This document shows, in pieces, positions 27,846-53,035 of a stretch of 54,021 nucleotides of DNA. The position numbers were made by a program, and so were the translations under genes. The notes below the pieces were generated by a model, which saw only the letters and a list, made by a program, of their open reading frames with translations, was not told the origin of the DNA and searched no databases. The stretch covers positions 1 to 54,021 of the forward strand of contig JAJFIJ010000372.1 of assembly GCA_021775105.1 (NCBI GenBank), in the 5' to 3' direction. The DNA comes from Rhodospirillales bacterium (lineage in GTDB: Bacteria; Pseudomonadota; Alphaproteobacteria; Rhodospirillales; Casp-alpha2). Each line of letters begins with the position of its first letter. The stretch's first letter is position 1.

Positions 27846-27921
27846 GGGGCCGTAGCTCAGTTGGGAGAGCGCAACACTGGCAGTGTTGAGGTCGTCGGTT
27901 CGATCCCGATCGGCTCCACCA
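27846..27921 (+). tRNA. tRNA-Ala (anticodon GGC), reconstituted by island integration
   Basis: ggggccgtagctcagttgggagagcgcaacactggcagtgttgaggtcgtcggttcgatcccgatcggctccacca; G3:U70; anticodon loop CTGGCAG. Confidence 0.96.
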
Positions 27922-28891
27922 TCAGAACCCCAAGGGAAACCTTGGGGTTTTGTCCGTTTGGGGTCTCGTCTTCTTTTGGGCTTTCTAGCCCCAGTGTGCC
28001 CAAATCGTGCCCATAGCTGTTAAGCGCAACAATAGCCCGCTCCTGAAACTCAGGTGCGAGATGCGAATAACGCTGAACCATGGTCAATGATTTGTGCCCG
28101 GTCATGTGCATCACGTCGTACAGGGGCAAGCCCTGCTGTACGAGGCGGGAGGCGAATGTATGGCGCAAATCATGAAAACGCACATCTTCCAAACCCGCTT
28201 TCTTGCGGGCGCGGTCATAAGCCGTTTTCACGTCTTTCAAGGGCCTTCCATTGTAGGTGAACACTGGTCCGCTATTCTTCGCCACCAGAATGTGCAGGGC
28301 ACGTTCTGTAAGCCTGACGGAACGGTCTTCACCATTCTTGGTTTCAATGAACGTGACCCGGCCATTGGGCAAATCCACATATCGCCAATCCAGTTTGAAC
28401 AGTTCCGAACGGCGTCCGCCCGTATCAAGGGCAAAAGCAATCAAAAGCCTTAACCTTTTCGGCGCGGCATTCAATAACCGCTGTTCCTCTGCCAAAGTCA
28501 GCCAGCGTGTGCGGCCTTTGGGTAACTTCACTTTTGGAAATACTGGCAATTTCACCAAGTCACCTTCGTTTTTAGCCTTGTTCAAGATTGCTTTAAGGAC
28601 TGCCAAGTCCCGGTGCAATGTCGCTTCTTTCACTTTCAGACGTCGTTTATCGGCAAAATCCCGAACCCGTTTTGCATCAATTTCGGTCAGCATATATGAG
28701 CCGAATTCATCCAAAATCATTTGCAACTGGTACTGATGGCTTCCTTTGTAACCATTAGGGCTTTCCCGTTTCTTCGCTTCCGCATATCCCGTACACTCTG
28801 TCACAAGTGCGGTAAGCGTTGGGGCGTGTTGCGGATTGACCGGGATTTCTGAATAGCTACACTTAGCCGTCACGCAATGGGAGGACGGCAC
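27857..28891 (-). CDS. Site-specific tyrosine recombinase/integrase; apparent 5' truncation/fusion with CRISPR array, 3' end extends into the tRNA
   Basis: Catalytic residues in context: TGGRRSEL (R), ETKNGED (K), FHDLRHTFASR (HxxR), TGHKS (H), VQRYSHL (Y). C-terminus MVEPIGIEPTTSTLPVLRSPN is antisense tRNA; N-terminal CSYSEIPVNPQ is translated CRISPR repeat. Confidence 0.88.
   Translation of the reverse strand: MPSSHCVTAKCSYSEIPVNPQHAPTLTALVTECTGYAEAKKRESPNGYKGSHQYQLQMILDEFGSYMLTEIDAKRVRDFADKRRLKVKEATLHRDLAVLKAILNKAKNEGDLVKLPVFPKVKLPKGRTRWLTLAEEQRLLNAAPKRLRLLIAFALDTGGRRSELFKLDWRYVDLPNGRVTFIETKNGEDRSVRLTERALHILVAKNSGPVFTYNGRPLKDVKTAYDRARKKAGLEDVRFHDLRHTFASRLVQQGLPLYDVMHMTGHKSLTMVQRYSHLAPEFQERAIVALNSYGHDLGTLGLESPKEDETPNGQNPKVSLGVLMVEPIGIEPTTSTLPVLRSPN
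27875..27921 (+). repeat. attL core (47-bp direct repeat, tRNA 3' part)
   Basis: cactggcagtgttgaggtcgtcggttcgatcccgatcggctccacca, identical to 34898-34944. Confidence 0.9.
27928..27951 (+). terminator. Island-borne terminator downstream of tRNA-Ala(GGC)
   Basis: ccccaagg-gaaa-ccttgggg followed by tttt. Confidence 0.8.
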
Positions 28892-30049
28892 CAGTTGCGG
28901 ATTGACCGGGATTTCTGAATAGCTACACTCTTCCTTGTCAGTACAAGTTCGTCGTCGGCGTTGCGGATTGACCGGGATTTCTGAATAGCTACACTTGTTG
29001 CCGTGGCGTTGAAAGCTTGCCCTAAGTTGCGGATTGACCGGGATTTCTGAATAGCTACACTATGGCCGCCGCGCCACTATATCCAACTGTCGTTGCGGAT
29101 TGACCGGGATTTCTGAATAGCTACACTCTCTATGGGAGCTTCTCGACAAACTACTCCGTTGCGGATTGACCGGGATTTCTGAATAGCTACACTTCGGTTG
29201 GCGCTACAAACACGGGCGCGGTGTTGCGGATTGACCGGGATTTCTGAATAGCTACACTTCACGGAAGTCTTCATGAGGTAGCCTGTATGTTGCGGATTGA
29301 CCGGGATTTCTGAATAGCTACACTTGTTGCAGTCGGCTAGGGCGTACATTCTAGGTTGCGGATTGACCGGGATTTCTGAATAGCTACACTGACACTGGGG
29401 TCTTCCATAACAAAGCCCCCGTTGCGGATTGACCGGGATTTCTGAATAGCTACACTATTGACGTTCCCGGTAACCCGTTTGCACTGTTGCGGATTGACCG
29501 GGATTTCTGAATAGCTACACTAAAATCCAAACTGATGGTTACGGTTCGGGAGTTGCGGATTGACCGGGATTTCTGAATAGCTACACTCCCGGCCATCGGT
29601 GCATGTTGTGACGCTGGGTTGCGGATTGACCGGGATTTCTGAATAGCTACACTGGCGCGATGACGGATCAGCAAGACCCTTGTGTTGCGGATTGACCGGG
29701 ATTTCTGAATAGCTACACTACCGGATGGCATGGTGCGGTTTCTGTTTGAGTTGCGGATTGACCGGGATTTCTGAATAGCTACACTTGCTGATGAACAATA
29801 CGCAATCATTGATTTGTTGCGGATTGACCGGGATTTCTGAATAGCTACACTCATCAGCGCCAAGTTGAGCATGACGCCTACGTTGCGGATTGACCGGGAT
29901 TTCTGAATAGCTACACTGGAGATTGTTTATCCACTCGTTCCATCGCTGTTGCGGATTGACCGGGATTTCTGAATAGCTACACTAGGATAGCTCGCTTCAC
30001 ACTCAATTCCCCTGTTGCGGATTGACCGGGATTTCTGAATAGCTACACT
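28828..30049 (+). CRISPR. CRISPR array, 19 identical 36-bp repeats, 18 spacers (sixteen 30 bp, two 29 bp)
   Basis: Repeat gttgcggattgaccgggatttctgaatagctacact starts at 28828, 28894, 28960, 29026, 29092, 29158, 29223, 29289, 29355, 29421, 29486, 29552, 29618, 29684, 29750, 29816, 29882, 29948 and 30014. Confidence 0.99.
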
Positions 30050-30053
30050 AGAT

Positions 30054-30091
30054 AGGCGCTAACCGATTGAAAAAAAGGTCGGTTAGCGCCT
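30054..30091. other. Strong inverted repeat between CRISPR array and cas2 (possible terminator between convergent units)
   Basis: aggcgctaaccga / tcggttagcgcct, 13-bp perfect stem, 12-nt A-rich loop. Confidence 0.75.
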
Positions 30092-30121
30092 TTCGTGATT
30101 CAAAAACTAATCTAGCCATGG

Positions 30122-30466
30122 TCAGAATAATACAAGTTGATGGGTTTTTTCGCGATCTTCACGCTGCTTGCCTTTGAGTAGTTTGATGTTTTCATACTGC
30201 TTGTCGGTTATAGCGACAATCTGGACTGACCCATATTCAGGCAAATTGTTACAAATCTTATTTTCCAGCGTTTGTCCGCTGTCCTTTCCCGATACCATAC
30301 GATAGTAGACCGAGAACTGGGCCATCGCAAATCCCTGATCAAGCAGGAAATTCCGAAATGCCGTCGCCGCCTTGCGGTCAGATCGCTCAACCACGGGCAG
30401 ATCAAACATCACAAGCATCCACATTATTTCATATCCGCTTAACCAGTTGTCCCGATCTCGCAGCAC
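30122..30466 (-). CDS. cas2: CRISPR-associated endonuclease Cas2 (type II)
   Basis: LSGYEIMWMLVMFDLPVVERSDRKAATAFRNFLLDQGFAMAQFSVYYR; GTG start. Confidence 0.95.
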   Translation of the reverse strand: MLRDRDNWLSGYEIMWMLVMFDLPVVERSDRKAATAFRNFLLDQGFAMAQFSVYYRMVSGKDSGQTLENKICNNLPEYGSVQIVAITDKQYENIKLLKGKQREDREKTHQLVLF

Positions 30467-30468
30467 AA

Positions 30469-31389
30469 TTAAATCAACTTTCCGGCTTGCCTTATAAGGG
30501 GGAATTCAAGCCGGTTTTCGTTGGCGCTCAAACTGCTAACCAGTGTCTGGGCCAAACGGTGGAGTGCGTTCATAACAGTGGAAACGCCTTTTTGAAGCTG
30601 AACATCCGTGTCCAGAACTTTTGACAGCGCCCGTTTCATATCCGGTGTCAGCGTTCCGGTTTCCGCTCCTTCCTTATCGATAATCTCTCGCACGATTTTA
30701 TCGACAAGCGGGCGAAATGGTTCCATCAAGTCGTCTACAAGGGCGAACGCATTTTTGCGATTGCGATGGTGAATGCCGAGCGCCGGTGTCAGGCCAGCGC
30801 CGCAAATCGCCCGCGCCGTTGCGGCCCGCACGATGGCGTAACCATAGTTCAACATTGAGTTTTCTATCCCGGTTTCGCGGTCGCGCCGAAAACTGCTTCC
30901 TAATAAGGCCGTCCAATAGTGCCGTGCGGCTTGGGCCTCCATGTTATCAGGATCGCCAGACTTGACTCGTTTAATCAGAACAGCAAGCTCGTCAATCACT
31001 GTCGATGAGCCTTCAAAATATCCCAAGATGGTTTTTTGGTTTGCAATTTTTTCCCGCACAATTGATTGCCAGAGGCGTTTCGCCAGTGGTTGACCGCAAT
31101 CGATTTGCGACCACAAAATGCCGGTCTGGTCGAAATGGCTGTCGTAAGGCAGTGAGAGGGCCAACGGGTGATAATTTTTCCCGCACGTTATGATCGGGGA
31201 TCTGCGTTCGGCCAGCTCCATAATTAATGTTTTTGATAAGATGATTTGATGCGCAGATAGGATGAGGGCAGTGATATCGTCGAGCGGAACGCGACCGACT
31301 TCACCGTTGTCGCGCTTGACGACCAGAAAACCTCTGTGCTTGGACAAATAGTGGCCGTCTTCGGCGATTTCGACAACCTGCGTAACCAT
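30469..31389 (-). CDS. cas1: CRISPR-associated endonuclease Cas1 (type II)
   Basis: 306 aa; NMEAQAARHYWTALLG ... GIENSMLNYGYAIVRAATARAICGAGLTPALGIHHRNRKNAFALVDDLMEPFRPLVD. Confidence 0.96.
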   Translation of the reverse strand: MVTQVVEIAEDGHYLSKHRGFLVVKRDNGEVGRVPLDDITALILSAHQIILSKTLIMELAERRSPIITCGKNYHPLALSLPYDSHFDQTGILWSQIDCGQPLAKRLWQSIVREKIANQKTILGYFEGSSTVIDELAVLIKRVKSGDPDNMEAQAARHYWTALLGSSFRRDRETGIENSMLNYGYAIVRAATARAICGAGLTPALGIHHRNRKNAFALVDDLMEPFRPLVDKIVREIIDKEGAETGTLTPDMKRALSKVLDTDVQLQKGVSTVMNALHRLAQTLVSSLSANENRLEFPLIRQAGKLI

Positions 31390-31392
31390 GAA

Positions 31393-34300
31393 TTAGCCTT
31401 TTCGACCACCGTCTTCGCGTATTGTCCATTTCCGTATGAAATTTTCTTTCAATACATTTATGGAGATGTGCCTTTGGTCTCCTTTGGTTTCATATTGAGG
31501 GCGAAGATCAATCTTATTAACTCGCGTGGCAAACCCAGCGACCCGAACGAATGTGGTTTTGCCGCTTCCAGAAATTTCAATCAGATCATTTTTAAATAAA
31601 CGGGCGATGAAGCTTGCCGCCGGGTGGATAGCTTGCCCATCGATTCGGCCCAGATTTTTGTCAGGGCTTTTTCCTTTGCAATTGGCATATGACCAAAACG
31701 CGCCCTTCCATTCAAATTCACCTTTCTTCCATTTTCCCGGCTTGCCTTTCGGCAGTTGCCAGATATCGACACAAACAAATGAATCCGGGGCGTATGCTTT
31801 GTACGGTGCGGACGGTATGGGTATTGCCGATTGGTTCGCGACCAGAATTCGGATCGTCTTTATGTTATTATTTTTGCCAAACTCGGCGAGAACTTTTGCC
31901 AACCCTGATTTATCCAGCTTTTTCCCGGCGGCTCTGGCCTGATCTAAATGCCTCTCAATCCGCGAACGCCAGCCGAGGTTGCGAATGGCGCCAACCTCTT
32001 TTTCAGACAGGCTTTCCAGTTTTTTCCGGGTGACAAGTTCGTGGCCCGGCAGGTCCGGGTCCTGCTTTTCTTTTGGCACAAGACCATAGGCGGTTTCCTT
32101 GTACATTTTCCCGTTCATGCCATGATCAGGCTTGTAGGACACGATTAGATCGTCCAACCGGCTCTTCAGTGCCGTCCGCAACGGGGTAATGTCCGGAAGC
32201 TCGATATGAACCCGATCATCGGCTCCCCGCTTGGTTTGATCGGACACCCGTTTTAACATGCTCCGGTCGGTCAACCCGACGACAAAGGCGTCGATTACAT
32301 GGTGGCGGTGATCGTTCCGTTCCTTGAAATTATGATCCCCCAGTAGGCTGTTCAGATGCCATTTGCCGCGCATCATCGCCGTCAGGCCGCCGGGGATCGT
32401 GACGATTTTGTTTTGGTCGCAAACATGGCTCAAATAGCGTTTGGTCAGGCGAGAAATATAAGCGTTGTCGGTTAGCTGCCGGGCCAAAAAGCCACCATCT
32501 TTTTCAAACCGCTCCATCGCATCGGCATCAAAGCGCCAGCGTTTGTTCTTCGGAAACGATTTTGCGCCCTCGGCTATCCGGCTCCATACCATACCCTTGT
32601 CGGAATGCTGGTCTCTGGCAAATGCTTCATAAGGGGTATTGTTGCCCTTTAACCGGTTTGCCTGACGAATGGCGATGGTCAGATTGGCTGTGCCGTTATC
32701 CAGCGTTCTTGAAAACGGCAAAATGTGCTCAATCTCGGCTTCGCCGTTAAACAGCATTGCAGCAGAAATGATTTTGCCAGAAAACGGGCAATGGCGCGTG
32801 AGTTGGTCGGGTCCCAGTTCTTCCCAAAGCCTGATTTTTTTCAAATCAAGCCCTGATGGCTCCTGACCGTGATTGAGTTCGCAAAACAATGCCGCTCTTT
32901 TGTCATTGGCTTTTGCAAACAGTGCATTCTGTTTGGAAATATCGTCACGGGCCTTGGCGGTCTTCTTCAGATCGCGGACCAGTTCAACGTGAATTTCGGC
33001 AGGCGGACCCAAGCGTTCGATCAGGCGATTGACGAGTTTGCGCAATTGGTTTAGCGCGACGTGAACCGTGGGATTGTTGATTTTGCCATAGTGCTGCTCT
33101 GGGCTGTCGTCCGCGCCGTAATCGGCGGGTTTGCCACCGATTACGCTGCCCCTTAACAGTTCCCCGTAATAGGGGAGCTGGTCCAGCAAATGATCGACCA
33201 CATATTTGCTATGATCCAGATAGACACCGTTGTCATCGTATACCTCGCGGACGGCAGCATCGTATCCCAGTTTTTTGGCGCGCATGATGGCGGCACAGCG
33301 GGTCATGAACTTGCGCGACAAATGCGCGGTCGCGGAGGACAGTTTAAATTTTGCAATCGCCCGACCCCGTGCGTCATCCAGCCCGAATCGTGCCATCAAG
33401 TCTTGGATTAACTGATTGTCGTCCTCTGCCTCGTGTAGCATTTCCACGACATCGTTTTGGTCGCCCGAAGAGAGCAGGTCCCACGCCGTGTCAAACAATT
33501 CCGGTTTTCGCATATCGATGGCGGTAGCATTGCCGTTTAGCTTGTCGCGCGGGCCATTTTCAAGATTGAATAAACACCCGCGCGGGAATACGGGGCTGCC
33601 ATCAGGAAATTTCAGTTTTCTCAACCCACCGAATGAAACCGTTTTCTGCGCATTCAGGCAATCAAGGACCGTTGCCCGCTGATCGTCATTTAGAGCGTAT
33701 TTTTTTTGATCTTCACCGTAATACTGAAGATTGGCGACTTCCTGCAAAATTCGAAATTCCTGGGCAATAGGTAAGTCTTTATGGGCACGGTATTCGTCGA
33801 TGAAAAACTCGCACCGGCCCCGCTCTACCGGTTTGAGTTTGCGCTGAAAGAAAATACCGTCAAACCCCTCCGACTTGTTACCATTACGTAAATGATCCCA
33901 ATCCTCTTTTGACAACGCATGATGAGGTTCTTGTAGGGTCCTTATTTGGTCAAATTCTTTCACATACATTGCGCGTTCGGCGTAAAGATCGCCGTCTTCG
34001 CCGCGGAACCGAACAGATTGGCCTGATAGAACCCTGTCGTTGAGCCATTGCCCCAATGTTCGATCACCTAGAGCGGCCCGCAATTCGGATATTTTCGGCT
34101 TGATTGTGCCGGTCTCCTCATCGTCGGCATCGCTCTTTCGGTTTGACAGAAATCCTCGCCGCTGACTGATATGAAACAAGGCCCGCCCAAGTTCGTTGGG
34201 TTCCAGTGTGCGCTCGATTGCAGCCGCCCTTAAACAATAAGGATCAAGCGCTTCAAGTTTTTTGCGATCAGCACGGTCCTTCGGCATCAATCCCAACTGA

Positions 34301-34548
34301 ACCAGACGCTCGATCAGTTGAGCTTTCCGGTGCAATCTGCGATCCCGGTTCCGCCGGGCACCACGGGCTAATCGGCGCTCTACAGCGAGGCTTTGACCTA
34401 CTCGGTCGTTACTAGAGGGTTCCCGGCCATCGGGGAAAATTCTGACCCCGGCATCAAGCAAACCCTCGATCTTGCCGGAATTGCCAAGCGAAAAAGCGGC
34501 CCATCCGAGCGAATTCGTTCCCATGTCCAACGCCAATCGCCACACCAT
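31393..34548 (-). CDS. cas9: CRISPR-associated endonuclease Cas9, type II-C (1051 aa)
   Basis: RuvC-I RLALDMGTNSLGWAAF; Arg-rich bridge RRLARGARRNRDRRLHRK; RuvC-II AEIHVELVRDLK; HNH EIEHILPFSRTLDNGTANLTIAIRQANRLKGN; RuvC-III HHVIDAFVVGL. No csn2 or cas4 nearby. Confidence 0.97.
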   Translation of the reverse strand: MVWRLALDMGTNSLGWAAFSLGNSGKIEGLLDAGVRIFPDGREPSSNDRVGQSLAVERRLARGARRNRDRRLHRKAQLIERLVQLGLMPKDRADRKKLEALDPYCLRAAAIERTLEPNELGRALFHISQRRGFLSNRKSDADDEETGTIKPKISELRAALGDRTLGQWLNDRVLSGQSVRFRGEDGDLYAERAMYVKEFDQIRTLQEPHHALSKEDWDHLRNGNKSEGFDGIFFQRKLKPVERGRCEFFIDEYRAHKDLPIAQEFRILQEVANLQYYGEDQKKYALNDDQRATVLDCLNAQKTVSFGGLRKLKFPDGSPVFPRGCLFNLENGPRDKLNGNATAIDMRKPELFDTAWDLLSSGDQNDVVEMLHEAEDDNQLIQDLMARFGLDDARGRAIAKFKLSSATAHLSRKFMTRCAAIMRAKKLGYDAAVREVYDDNGVYLDHSKYVVDHLLDQLPYYGELLRGSVIGGKPADYGADDSPEQHYGKINNPTVHVALNQLRKLVNRLIERLGPPAEIHVELVRDLKKTAKARDDISKQNALFAKANDKRAALFCELNHGQEPSGLDLKKIRLWEELGPDQLTRHCPFSGKIISAAMLFNGEAEIEHILPFSRTLDNGTANLTIAIRQANRLKGNNTPYEAFARDQHSDKGMVWSRIAEGAKSFPKNKRWRFDADAMERFEKDGGFLARQLTDNAYISRLTKRYLSHVCDQNKIVTIPGGLTAMMRGKWHLNSLLGDHNFKERNDHRHHVIDAFVVGLTDRSMLKRVSDQTKRGADDRVHIELPDITPLRTALKSRLDDLIVSYKPDHGMNGKMYKETAYGLVPKEKQDPDLPGHELVTRKKLESLSEKEVGAIRNLGWRSRIERHLDQARAAGKKLDKSGLAKVLAEFGKNNNIKTIRILVANQSAIPIPSAPYKAYAPDSFVCVDIWQLPKGKPGKWKKGEFEWKGAFWSYANCKGKSPDKNLGRIDGQAIHPAASFIARLFKNDLIEISGSGKTTFVRVAGFATRVNKIDLRPQYETKGDQRHISINVLKENFIRKWTIREDGGRKG

Positions 34549-34564
34549 ATCGGATACCTATCAA

Positions 34565-34622
34565 TTGACAACTAAATCAACGGTAATAGATTGACTTATG
34601 TGTTAAAGCGAAACAATATATA
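34565..34622 (+). promoter_or_regulatory. Candidate divergent cas9/tracrRNA promoter region
   Basis: AT-rich intergenic DNA with TTGACA (34565-34570) and TTGACT (34591-34596) upstream of aatatatat (34615-34623), placed to start transcription at the anti-repeat. Confidence 0.4.
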
Positions 34623-34626
34623 TCTT

Positions 34627-34712
34627 GAGTGTAGCTACTCAGAAATCTTGGCAATTTGTTAACACGACTTTTGTCATAAGATTGAAAAGACTGGGTTCGC
34701 CCAGTCTTTTTT
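34627..34712 (+). ncRNA. tracrRNA
   Basis: Anti-repeat agtgtagctactcagaaatcttggcaatttgttaac matches the reverse complement of the CRISPR repeat along its length with wobbles and small bulges, then a GACttttGTC mini-hairpin and a terminator hairpin. Confidence 0.88.
34685..34712 (+). terminator. Rho-independent terminator of tracrRNA
   Basis: aagactggg-ttcg-cccagtctt followed by tttt. Confidence 0.88.
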
Positions 34713-34897
34713 CATTGGAAACTATTCAAAATCTGCCCTGACCAGCAGTAGTTTCGGTGGTTCAGTAAATTCCACTGTGCCCAAAACGTGCCAATCTTAA
34801 TCCTCCTTAATCGATTTTATCCGGTTTTATCGGGCACAATGTGCGACAGCGCCCAAACAGCTAGTTGATATTAAATAGTTTTATTTTTTACTGAACC

Positions 34898-34944
34898 CAC
34901 TGGCAGTGTTGAGGTCGTCGGTTCGATCCCGATCGGCTCCACCA
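34898..34944 (+). repeat. attR core (47-bp direct repeat, orphan tRNA-Ala 3' fragment)
   Basis: Identical to 27875-27921; the tRNA 5' half is absent here. Confidence 0.9.
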
Positions 34945-34959
34945 AGTTTTTCGGCAAAA

Positions 34960-34983
34960 CCCCAAGGGAACCCTTGGGGTTTT
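34960..34983 (+). terminator. Original (host-side) tRNA-Ala(GGC) terminator, now separated from its gene
   Basis: ccccaaggg-aa-cccttgggg followed by tttt; near-identical to 27928-27951. Confidence 0.75.
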
Positions 34984-52462: not shown

Positions 52463-53035
52463 TCATTTACTAACGGCCGGATCAATCCACCCCACATTGC
52501 CGTCCGGACGCCTGTAAACGACATTCAGGCTGCCGCTGGCACTGTTGCGAAACATGATTACCGGCTGGTCGGCCAGGTCCATTCGCATAACCGCCTGACC
52601 GACAGTCAGCGATTCAATCTCCGTCGGCATTTCGGCAATAATCGCCGGCTGCCCGTCAACAGAGACTTCTTCCGTTTCCGATTCCGGCTCCATAACATAT
52701 TGCTGGGCCAGCACAATATCATCATGGTCACGATTTTTATGATGATCATTCATGCGTCGCTTGTAACGACGAAGCTGCTTGGCGATGCGCTCCAGCGCAC
52801 CATCAAACGCACCGTAAGCGTCCGTTGATTCACCGCCGCCTTGAATAACCAGTCCGCGCGGACCCGGATGCACCGAGATGTCGGCCCGCAGTCCATGCCC
52901 GGATTTCGAAAAATTGACGCTGGCATCAATGGCCTGACTGAAATATTTGGTGACAGCGGGAGCGAGGTGGTCCTGAACGTGGCTGGTCAACGACTCACCA
53001 ACGTTCATGTTTTTGCCAGTAACGGAAATGTCCAT
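52463..53035 (-). CDS. hpf: Ribosome hibernation-promoting factor (long HPF)
   Basis: MDISVTGKNMNVGESLTSHVQDHLAPAVTKYFSQAIDASVNFSKSGHGLRADISVH...GQAVMRMDLADQPVIMFRNSASGSLNVVYRRPDGNVGWIDP. Confidence 0.92.
   Translation of the reverse strand: MDISVTGKNMNVGESLTSHVQDHLAPAVTKYFSQAIDASVNFSKSGHGLRADISVHPGPRGLVIQGGGESTDAYGAFDGALERIAKQLRRYKRRMNDHHKNRDHDDIVLAQQYVMEPESETEEVSVDGQPAIIAEMPTEIESLTVGQAVMRMDLADQPVIMFRNSASGSLNVVYRRPDGNVGWIDPAVSK

Follow-up and report, generated by a model that had tools for sequence, protein, structure and literature searches.

The window, i.e. the whole stretch of 54,021 nucleotides that was analysed, harbors an intact tRNA-Ala(GGC) gene whose 3' 47 bp recur downstream as an orphan tRNA fragment, and between the two copies lie a tyrosine integrase gene (int), a CRISPR array, cas2, cas1, cas9, and a tracrRNA (Table 1). 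The perfect 47-bp repeat reported in an initial annotation of this DNA was confirmed as an exact match, and the tRNA was found complete by both ARAGORN and Rfam. An exact match of 47 bp within 54 kb is far too unlikely to arise by chance. The duplicated block corresponds to positions 30-76 of the tRNA and begins two bases 5' of the anticodon loop, as had been recognized before; the crossover within this loop that was proposed on that occasion is plausible. Measured from core end to core end, the unit comprises 7,023 bp, which agrees with the ~7.0 kb inserted in tRNA-Ala(GGC) estimated earlier. Inspection of ORFs and Pfam matches revealed no other convincing gene besides int and the cas genes between the att copies, so that the absence of other evident cargo, likewise claimed before, was upheld. 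Relaxase or conjugation genes, as expected for an ICE or IME, are absent between the att copies, and the same applies to phage structural, satellite packaging, or replication genes, as expected for a prophage or a satellite.

Table 1. Features of the tRNA-Ala(GGC) unit in the window and of the loci compared with it (L numbers denote loci from other contigs or genomes).
Feature	Position	Strand	Basis
tRNA-Ala(GGC), intact	27846-27921	+	ARAGORN; Rfam tRNA; 47-bp exact repeat
Tyrosine integrase, 5'-truncated	27866-28789	-	Pfam PF00589; sibling alignment from their residue 67
att core at the int-side junction, 3' 47 bp of tRNA-Ala(GGC)	27875-27921		exact repeat
Candidate arm-type site, int end	27991-28014	+	88% direct repeat of 34772-34795; function predicted
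Proposed deletion junction, int codon ~67 joined to TACACT	28786-28797		sequence and sibling comparison
30-nt spacer from the repeat stump to the first complete repeat	28798-28827	+	
CRISPR array, 19 perfect 36-bp repeats (GTTGCGGATTGACCGGGATTTCTGAATAGCTACACT, crRNA sense), 18 spacers of 29-30 nt	28828-30049	+	
Hairpin GGCGCTAACCGA / TCGGTTAGCGCC, gap between array and cas2, acquisition end	30055-30090		sequence; gap sequences of relatives
cas2	30122-30466	-	TIGR01573
cas1, type II	30469-31389	-	TIGR03639
cas9, 1051 aa, HNH and RuvC parts present	31393-34548	-	TIGR01865, HNH_4, RuvC_III
tracrRNA, anti-repeat 34628-34666, terminator hairpin ~34686-34713	34628-34713	+	inverted repeats to CRISPR repeats; transcript extent predicted
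attR-side arm region, arm-type copy 34772-34795 and motif GCGACAGCGCCC 34843-34854	34772-34854		homologous right ends of L178, L048, L054; motif positions
Distal att core, orphan 3' part of tRNA-Ala	34898-34944	+	identical to 27875-27921
Sibling element spans	L178:9395-18535; L048:9603-18999; L219:804-11372; L213:847-10963; L211:690-10037		
tRNAs beside Cas9 loci	L088:8623-8709; L092:15421-15497; L093:15388-15464; L099:14291-14380; L108:4103-4179; L128:6663-6739		

Int, Cas2, Cas1, and Cas9 were assigned via Pfam/NCBIfam profiles, and the placement of the cas genes and the tracrRNA, the latter recognizable 5' of cas9 by its anti-repeat and terminator, corresponds to that given in the initial annotation. 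Cas9, Cas1, and Cas2 look full length, with their defining domains present. The locus consists of cas9, cas1, and cas2 only (neither csn2 nor cas4 is found), an array and a tracrRNA, the composition of a type II-C system, and in relatives the anti-repeat and terminator are arranged likewise 5' of cas9. The array had been described as comprising 19 repeats; 19 perfect 36-bp repeats are indeed present, but it continues with one more spacer and a 6-nt stump of a 20th repeat. Protospacers for its spacers were found neither in phages and plasmids nor in the own genome. The hairpin in the gap between the array and cas2 may serve as a stop for crRNA transcription or as a mark of the integration end. 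Hairpins with varying but matching arms are also present in the cas2-array gap of L088, L090-L093, L096, L098, L099, and L108.

Integrases of the same family occur on other tRNA-located elements, denoted here as siblings. Six of them with both att copies (L054, L178, L048/L220, L211, L213, L219) range from 8.3 to 10.5 kb, and L218, which has a more distant integrase and also both att copies, measures 14.6 kb. Siblings are inserted in tRNA-Ala(GGC) (L178), tRNA-Thr (L048/L220, L211, and L213), or tRNA-Ala(CGC) (L219 and L054) and duplicate the equivalent 3' portion of their tRNA. L178, from a genome of the same family, duplicates the same 47-bp span of tRNA-Ala(GGC) and encodes an integrase 65% identical to that of the window. 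The attR-side region of the window aligns with the right ends of L178, L048, and L054. The 7.0-kb unit is therefore a genuine tRNA-Ala(GGC) integrative element: homology links its attR end to those of its siblings, and one sibling occupies this very tRNA and duplicates an identical span. Entry by site-specific integration into tRNA-Ala, with the CRISPR-Cas locus enclosed by the att sites, is thus supported. The motif GCGACAGCGCCC is conserved just 5' of the intact int in L047, L048, L178, and L219 and also inside attR; the attR copy is the only one kept in the window. It is possibly a site for an excisionase, the integrase, or a repressor.

The cargo of the siblings was assigned for L048, L178, L211, L213, and L219. 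It consists of type III restriction-modification plus a cytosine methylase (L048), of type I restriction-modification (L211, L213, and L219), or of a dCTP deaminase, a DUF6791-ThiF and DUF6527 pair, capH/capP-like regulators, and a HepT-nucleotidyltransferase pair (L178). The element family is made up of a tyrosine integrase, an overlapping excisionase-like gene and mostly one main defence module, and for this reason CRISPR-Cas9 is considered one interchangeable cargo among others. A suspected CRISPR array in L216 was rejected, as it lies within a long repetitive protein gene. With its siblings, the window element has in common the homologous integrase, the duplication of the tRNA 3' end and a cargo that is mostly concerned with defence. 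It differs from them in the nature of this cargo, which is restriction-modification, dCTP deaminase, or unassigned in the siblings and CRISPR-Cas9 in the window, and in lacking the full-length integrase and the excisionase-like gene which they keep.

The tyrosine integrase had been described as reading into the tRNA. Its 3' end does extend into tRNA-Ala and the catalytic domain is kept, but the gene is incomplete: the remainder corresponds to residues 67-376 of intact siblings, and the first ~66 sibling residues are missing. The first aligned residue is residue ~35 of the window ORF, matching residue ~67 of relatives from the same family and order, in which the missing N-terminal portion is ~66-67 residues long; the initial ~34 residues of the ORF are mainly CRISPR repeat and spacer translated in frame. 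The lost part (MRLYKRKxSxxWW...) lies N-terminal to the SAM-like core-binding domain and, by comparison with lambda-type integrases, would be expected to bind arm sites. On the + strand, int codon ~67 is followed by TACACT (28792-28797), the 30-nt spacer, and the complete repeat starting at 28828. TACACT equals the final 6 nt of a CRISPR repeat. Since six matching nucleotides at precisely one spacer length from the following repeat would arise by chance in ~1 of 4,000 cases, it is most likely the stump of a twentieth repeat. The fusion of int codon ~67 to a repeat remnant therefore indicates that a deletion has brought int and the old end of the array together.

All sibling-integrase loci examined (16/16, including two repeat retrievals of elements already in the set) harbor a full-length int and an overlapping upstream excisionase-like ORF. 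The latter has zero Pfam matches and is named for its size, its place, and its HTH-like sequence. No leftovers of this gene or of the integrase N-terminal domain were found in the window, and no ribosome-binding sequence comparable to the purine-rich one ahead of the siblings' int ATG was seen before the window int. A complete cognate integrase and an excisionase, the equipment for self-mobility, are hence not present, and the view of the present element as a self-contained working mobile unit is not supported, with the integrase start, the N-terminal domain, and the excisionase-like gene all gone.

The reading we favor, with a probability of about 0.8, is that a small tRNA element of this family with a type II-C cargo entered tRNA-Ala(GGC), later underwent a deletion between array and int, and is now probably immobilised. 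A complete type II-C CRISPR-Cas9 locus would have arrived as the cargo of the small integrative element. In a subsequent deletion, with one boundary at int codon ~67 and the other at the array's old end (the fusion is observed, the order of events is our reconstruction), the element would have lost the oldest repeat or repeats, the excisionase-like gene, and the 5' part of int with the start and the N-terminal domain. The element may formerly have held more DNA between array and int. The truncated integrase would hardly be able to bind arm sites or to be normally translated, and it is the loss of the integrase front end and of the excisionase-like gene that makes the element probably immobile. 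The cas genes, the tracrRNA, and the acquisition end beside cas2 are retained, and the immune module is probably still functional. In relatives, degenerate repeats, where present, are located mostly at the cas2-distal end, and the cas2-proximal repeats are perfect. Type II-C systems acquire spacers at the last (3') repeat and have promoters within the repeats (PMC12080349, PMC12638026). Because of this published 3' acquisition and the position of the degenerate repeats in relatives, the deletion is taken to have removed the old end of the array and spared the acquisition end beside cas2.

It is unlikely that the unit is still a currently mobile self-contained CRISPR-Cas9 element, with an integrase that works without its N-terminal domain, perhaps started from a GTG or TTG in the CRISPR-derived sequence, or with another integrase acting in trans. 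The remaining int frame is open as far as the tRNA without further damage, as could also be expected of a short integrase that was active until recently or still is; the catalytic domain is kept, the att cores are identical, and arm-type copies remain at both ends. Against mobility stand the retention of the N-terminal domain and the excisionase-like gene in 16/16 sibling loci and the ribosome-binding sequence that is obvious in siblings and not seen before the window int. As to help in trans, the own MAG provides just distant integrases and a short remnant from the window's integrase family. Among viral contigs, a single distant relative of the window integrase (33% identical) was found. The short remnant in the MAG adjoins a tRNA-Thr (L187:4840-5231, contig C144) and is a trace of another element of this family.

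A close Cas9 is absent from 47 other genomes of the same family, in which the only Cas9 sequences are a distant one in G008 and a short fragment at a contig edge in G080. The nearest Cas9 proteins, with 71-74% identity across most of the protein, stem from Kordiimonas, Emcibacter(aceae), and Magnetovibrio genomes, which belong to other families and orders. In a phylogenetic tree, the window Cas9 is placed among these proteins in a fully supported clade of eight members, which fits a horizontal acquisition of the Cas9 locus at a date left unset by the tree. Five Cas9 relatives were retrieved from viral contigs, none of them close. The window's integrase family is absent from 41/41 related Cas9 loci within the fetched DNA, in which many contigs end near the locus; one Palleronia Cas9 locus has a different, short integrase. 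Cas9 is in turn absent from every sibling inspected. The initial annotation had named a failure of int and cas to move together in relatives as a finding that would refute its reading, and this is what was encountered: the nearest Cas9 loci are without such an integrase, and the nearest integrases have other, mostly defence, cargo. Since the pair is seen only here, int and cas appear not to be a stable pair elsewhere among the loci examined.

Such a pair could also be an accidental composite, in which CRISPR-Cas9 was later inserted into, or joined by a deletion to, a different element and never travelled as its cargo. The lack of recurrence of the pair, with no Cas9 in the inspected siblings and the integrase family in 0/41 related Cas9 loci, favors this explanation. 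It is nevertheless considered unlikely, as the tracrRNA terminator and the attR-side arm site are only ~60 bp apart and the end is still of the sibling type, no traces of anything else were seen inside the element, and siblings usually carry a defence module.

The tRNA-Ala(GGC) gene of the window follows an FYDLN gene, and this site is an integration hot spot within the family. It is occupied, with the tRNA duplicated, in G018, G019, and G017, and an integrase is present at the FYDLN-tRNA-Ala site in G021. The same arrangement without integrase or duplication is found in L172, L175, L177, L182, and L183, which belong to the same family (none of the comparison genomes is of the same genus). In four of these loci (L175, L177, L182, and L183), a gene some 13-15 kb downstream encodes a protein with 58% identity to the product of 52463-53035, as would be expected if the right flank is native. 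Together, the FYDLN-adjacent tRNA-Ala(GGC) genes in L169, L171, L178, and L181 carry three or more distinct elements, 9-17 kb in size.

The source genome is a MAG of 389 contigs with 5.3% contamination. A second FYDLN copy, 88% identical, lies on another contig of the own genome (L186, contig C151) that ends inside tRNA-Ala, and therefore the MAG contains DNA binned from a second, related organism; a second allele of the right flank of the element was not found in it. This mixed composition is what could raise the suspicion that the int-array fusion is a false join of the assembly, a very remote prospect given that the joined sequences share no more than a few bases where they meet, which is not enough for an assembler to overlap them, that a random join would not be expected to leave a repeat stump precisely in spacer register, and that both ends fit one element.

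Related Cas9 loci are located beside tRNA genes unusually often. Six tRNA genes lie less than 1 kb from the ends of such loci and none elsewhere in the 551 kb fetched, the loci included; 52 ends have at least 800 bp of flank, and the tRNA count was taken over all loci. Bacterial genomes typically contain ~45 tRNA genes per 3.5 Mb, and at this density fewer than one adjacent tRNA would be expected, a comparison made post hoc. The tRNA 3' end points toward the Cas9 locus in all five cases read (L088, L092, L093, L099, and L108), with L092 and L093 representing one common site. No att duplication beyond a 9-nt chance-level match was detected at the four testable tRNA-adjacent relatives, and no integrase at any of the six. 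This suggests, without proving it, that the Cas9 clade repeatedly reached tRNA genes and then lost the mobility genes.

Similar small elements are the tycheposons of Prochlorococcus, which by description resemble the window element in targeting tRNA genes by a tyrosine recombinase and in their variable cargo. A description of the window's small element family with Cas9 was not found among the open-licence papers searched. As in the window, CRISPR-Cas is located between att sites together with an integrase on GI-24 of Vibrio cholerae; this island, however, encodes a type I-E system and a different integrase and excises, as shown by PCR (PMC6360697), whereas the window int is truncated. The type II-B islands of Salinivibrio and V. 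natriegens are integrase-bearing, reside at a tRNA, and carry a Cas9 system like the window, but include cas4, and that of V. natriegens comprises 30 kb with other cargo (PMC6360697). CampyICE1 combines a type II-C Cas9 with an integrase beside a tRNA (tRNA-Met); unlike the window element, it is conjugative, 70-129 kb in size, and harbors a degenerate system without cas1 and cas2 (PMC8743540). CRISPR systems on tRNA-integrated islands are accordingly already known, and what is new here is the small size without transfer genes, the membership in a family of small defence elements, and the integrase cut through from the array side.

The finding makes Cas9 one of several cargoes that a single family of small elements can exchange, and an entire CRISPR-Cas9 system would have a concrete way of passing between bacteria without a plasmid or a conjugative element. 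It would also be a snapshot of what comes next, when the genes for mobility disappear and the immune system turns resident. As a tentative generalization, for which the odds are held to be somewhat against, tRNA elements of 7-10 kb may serve as interchangeable defence cassettes in the alphaproteobacteria of this order, carrying type I/III restriction-modification, dCTP deaminase, or CRISPR-Cas9; the type II-C Cas9 clade might then have been spread repeatedly by them and fixed by the loss of mobility genes, leaving behind tRNA-adjacent loci without an integrase.
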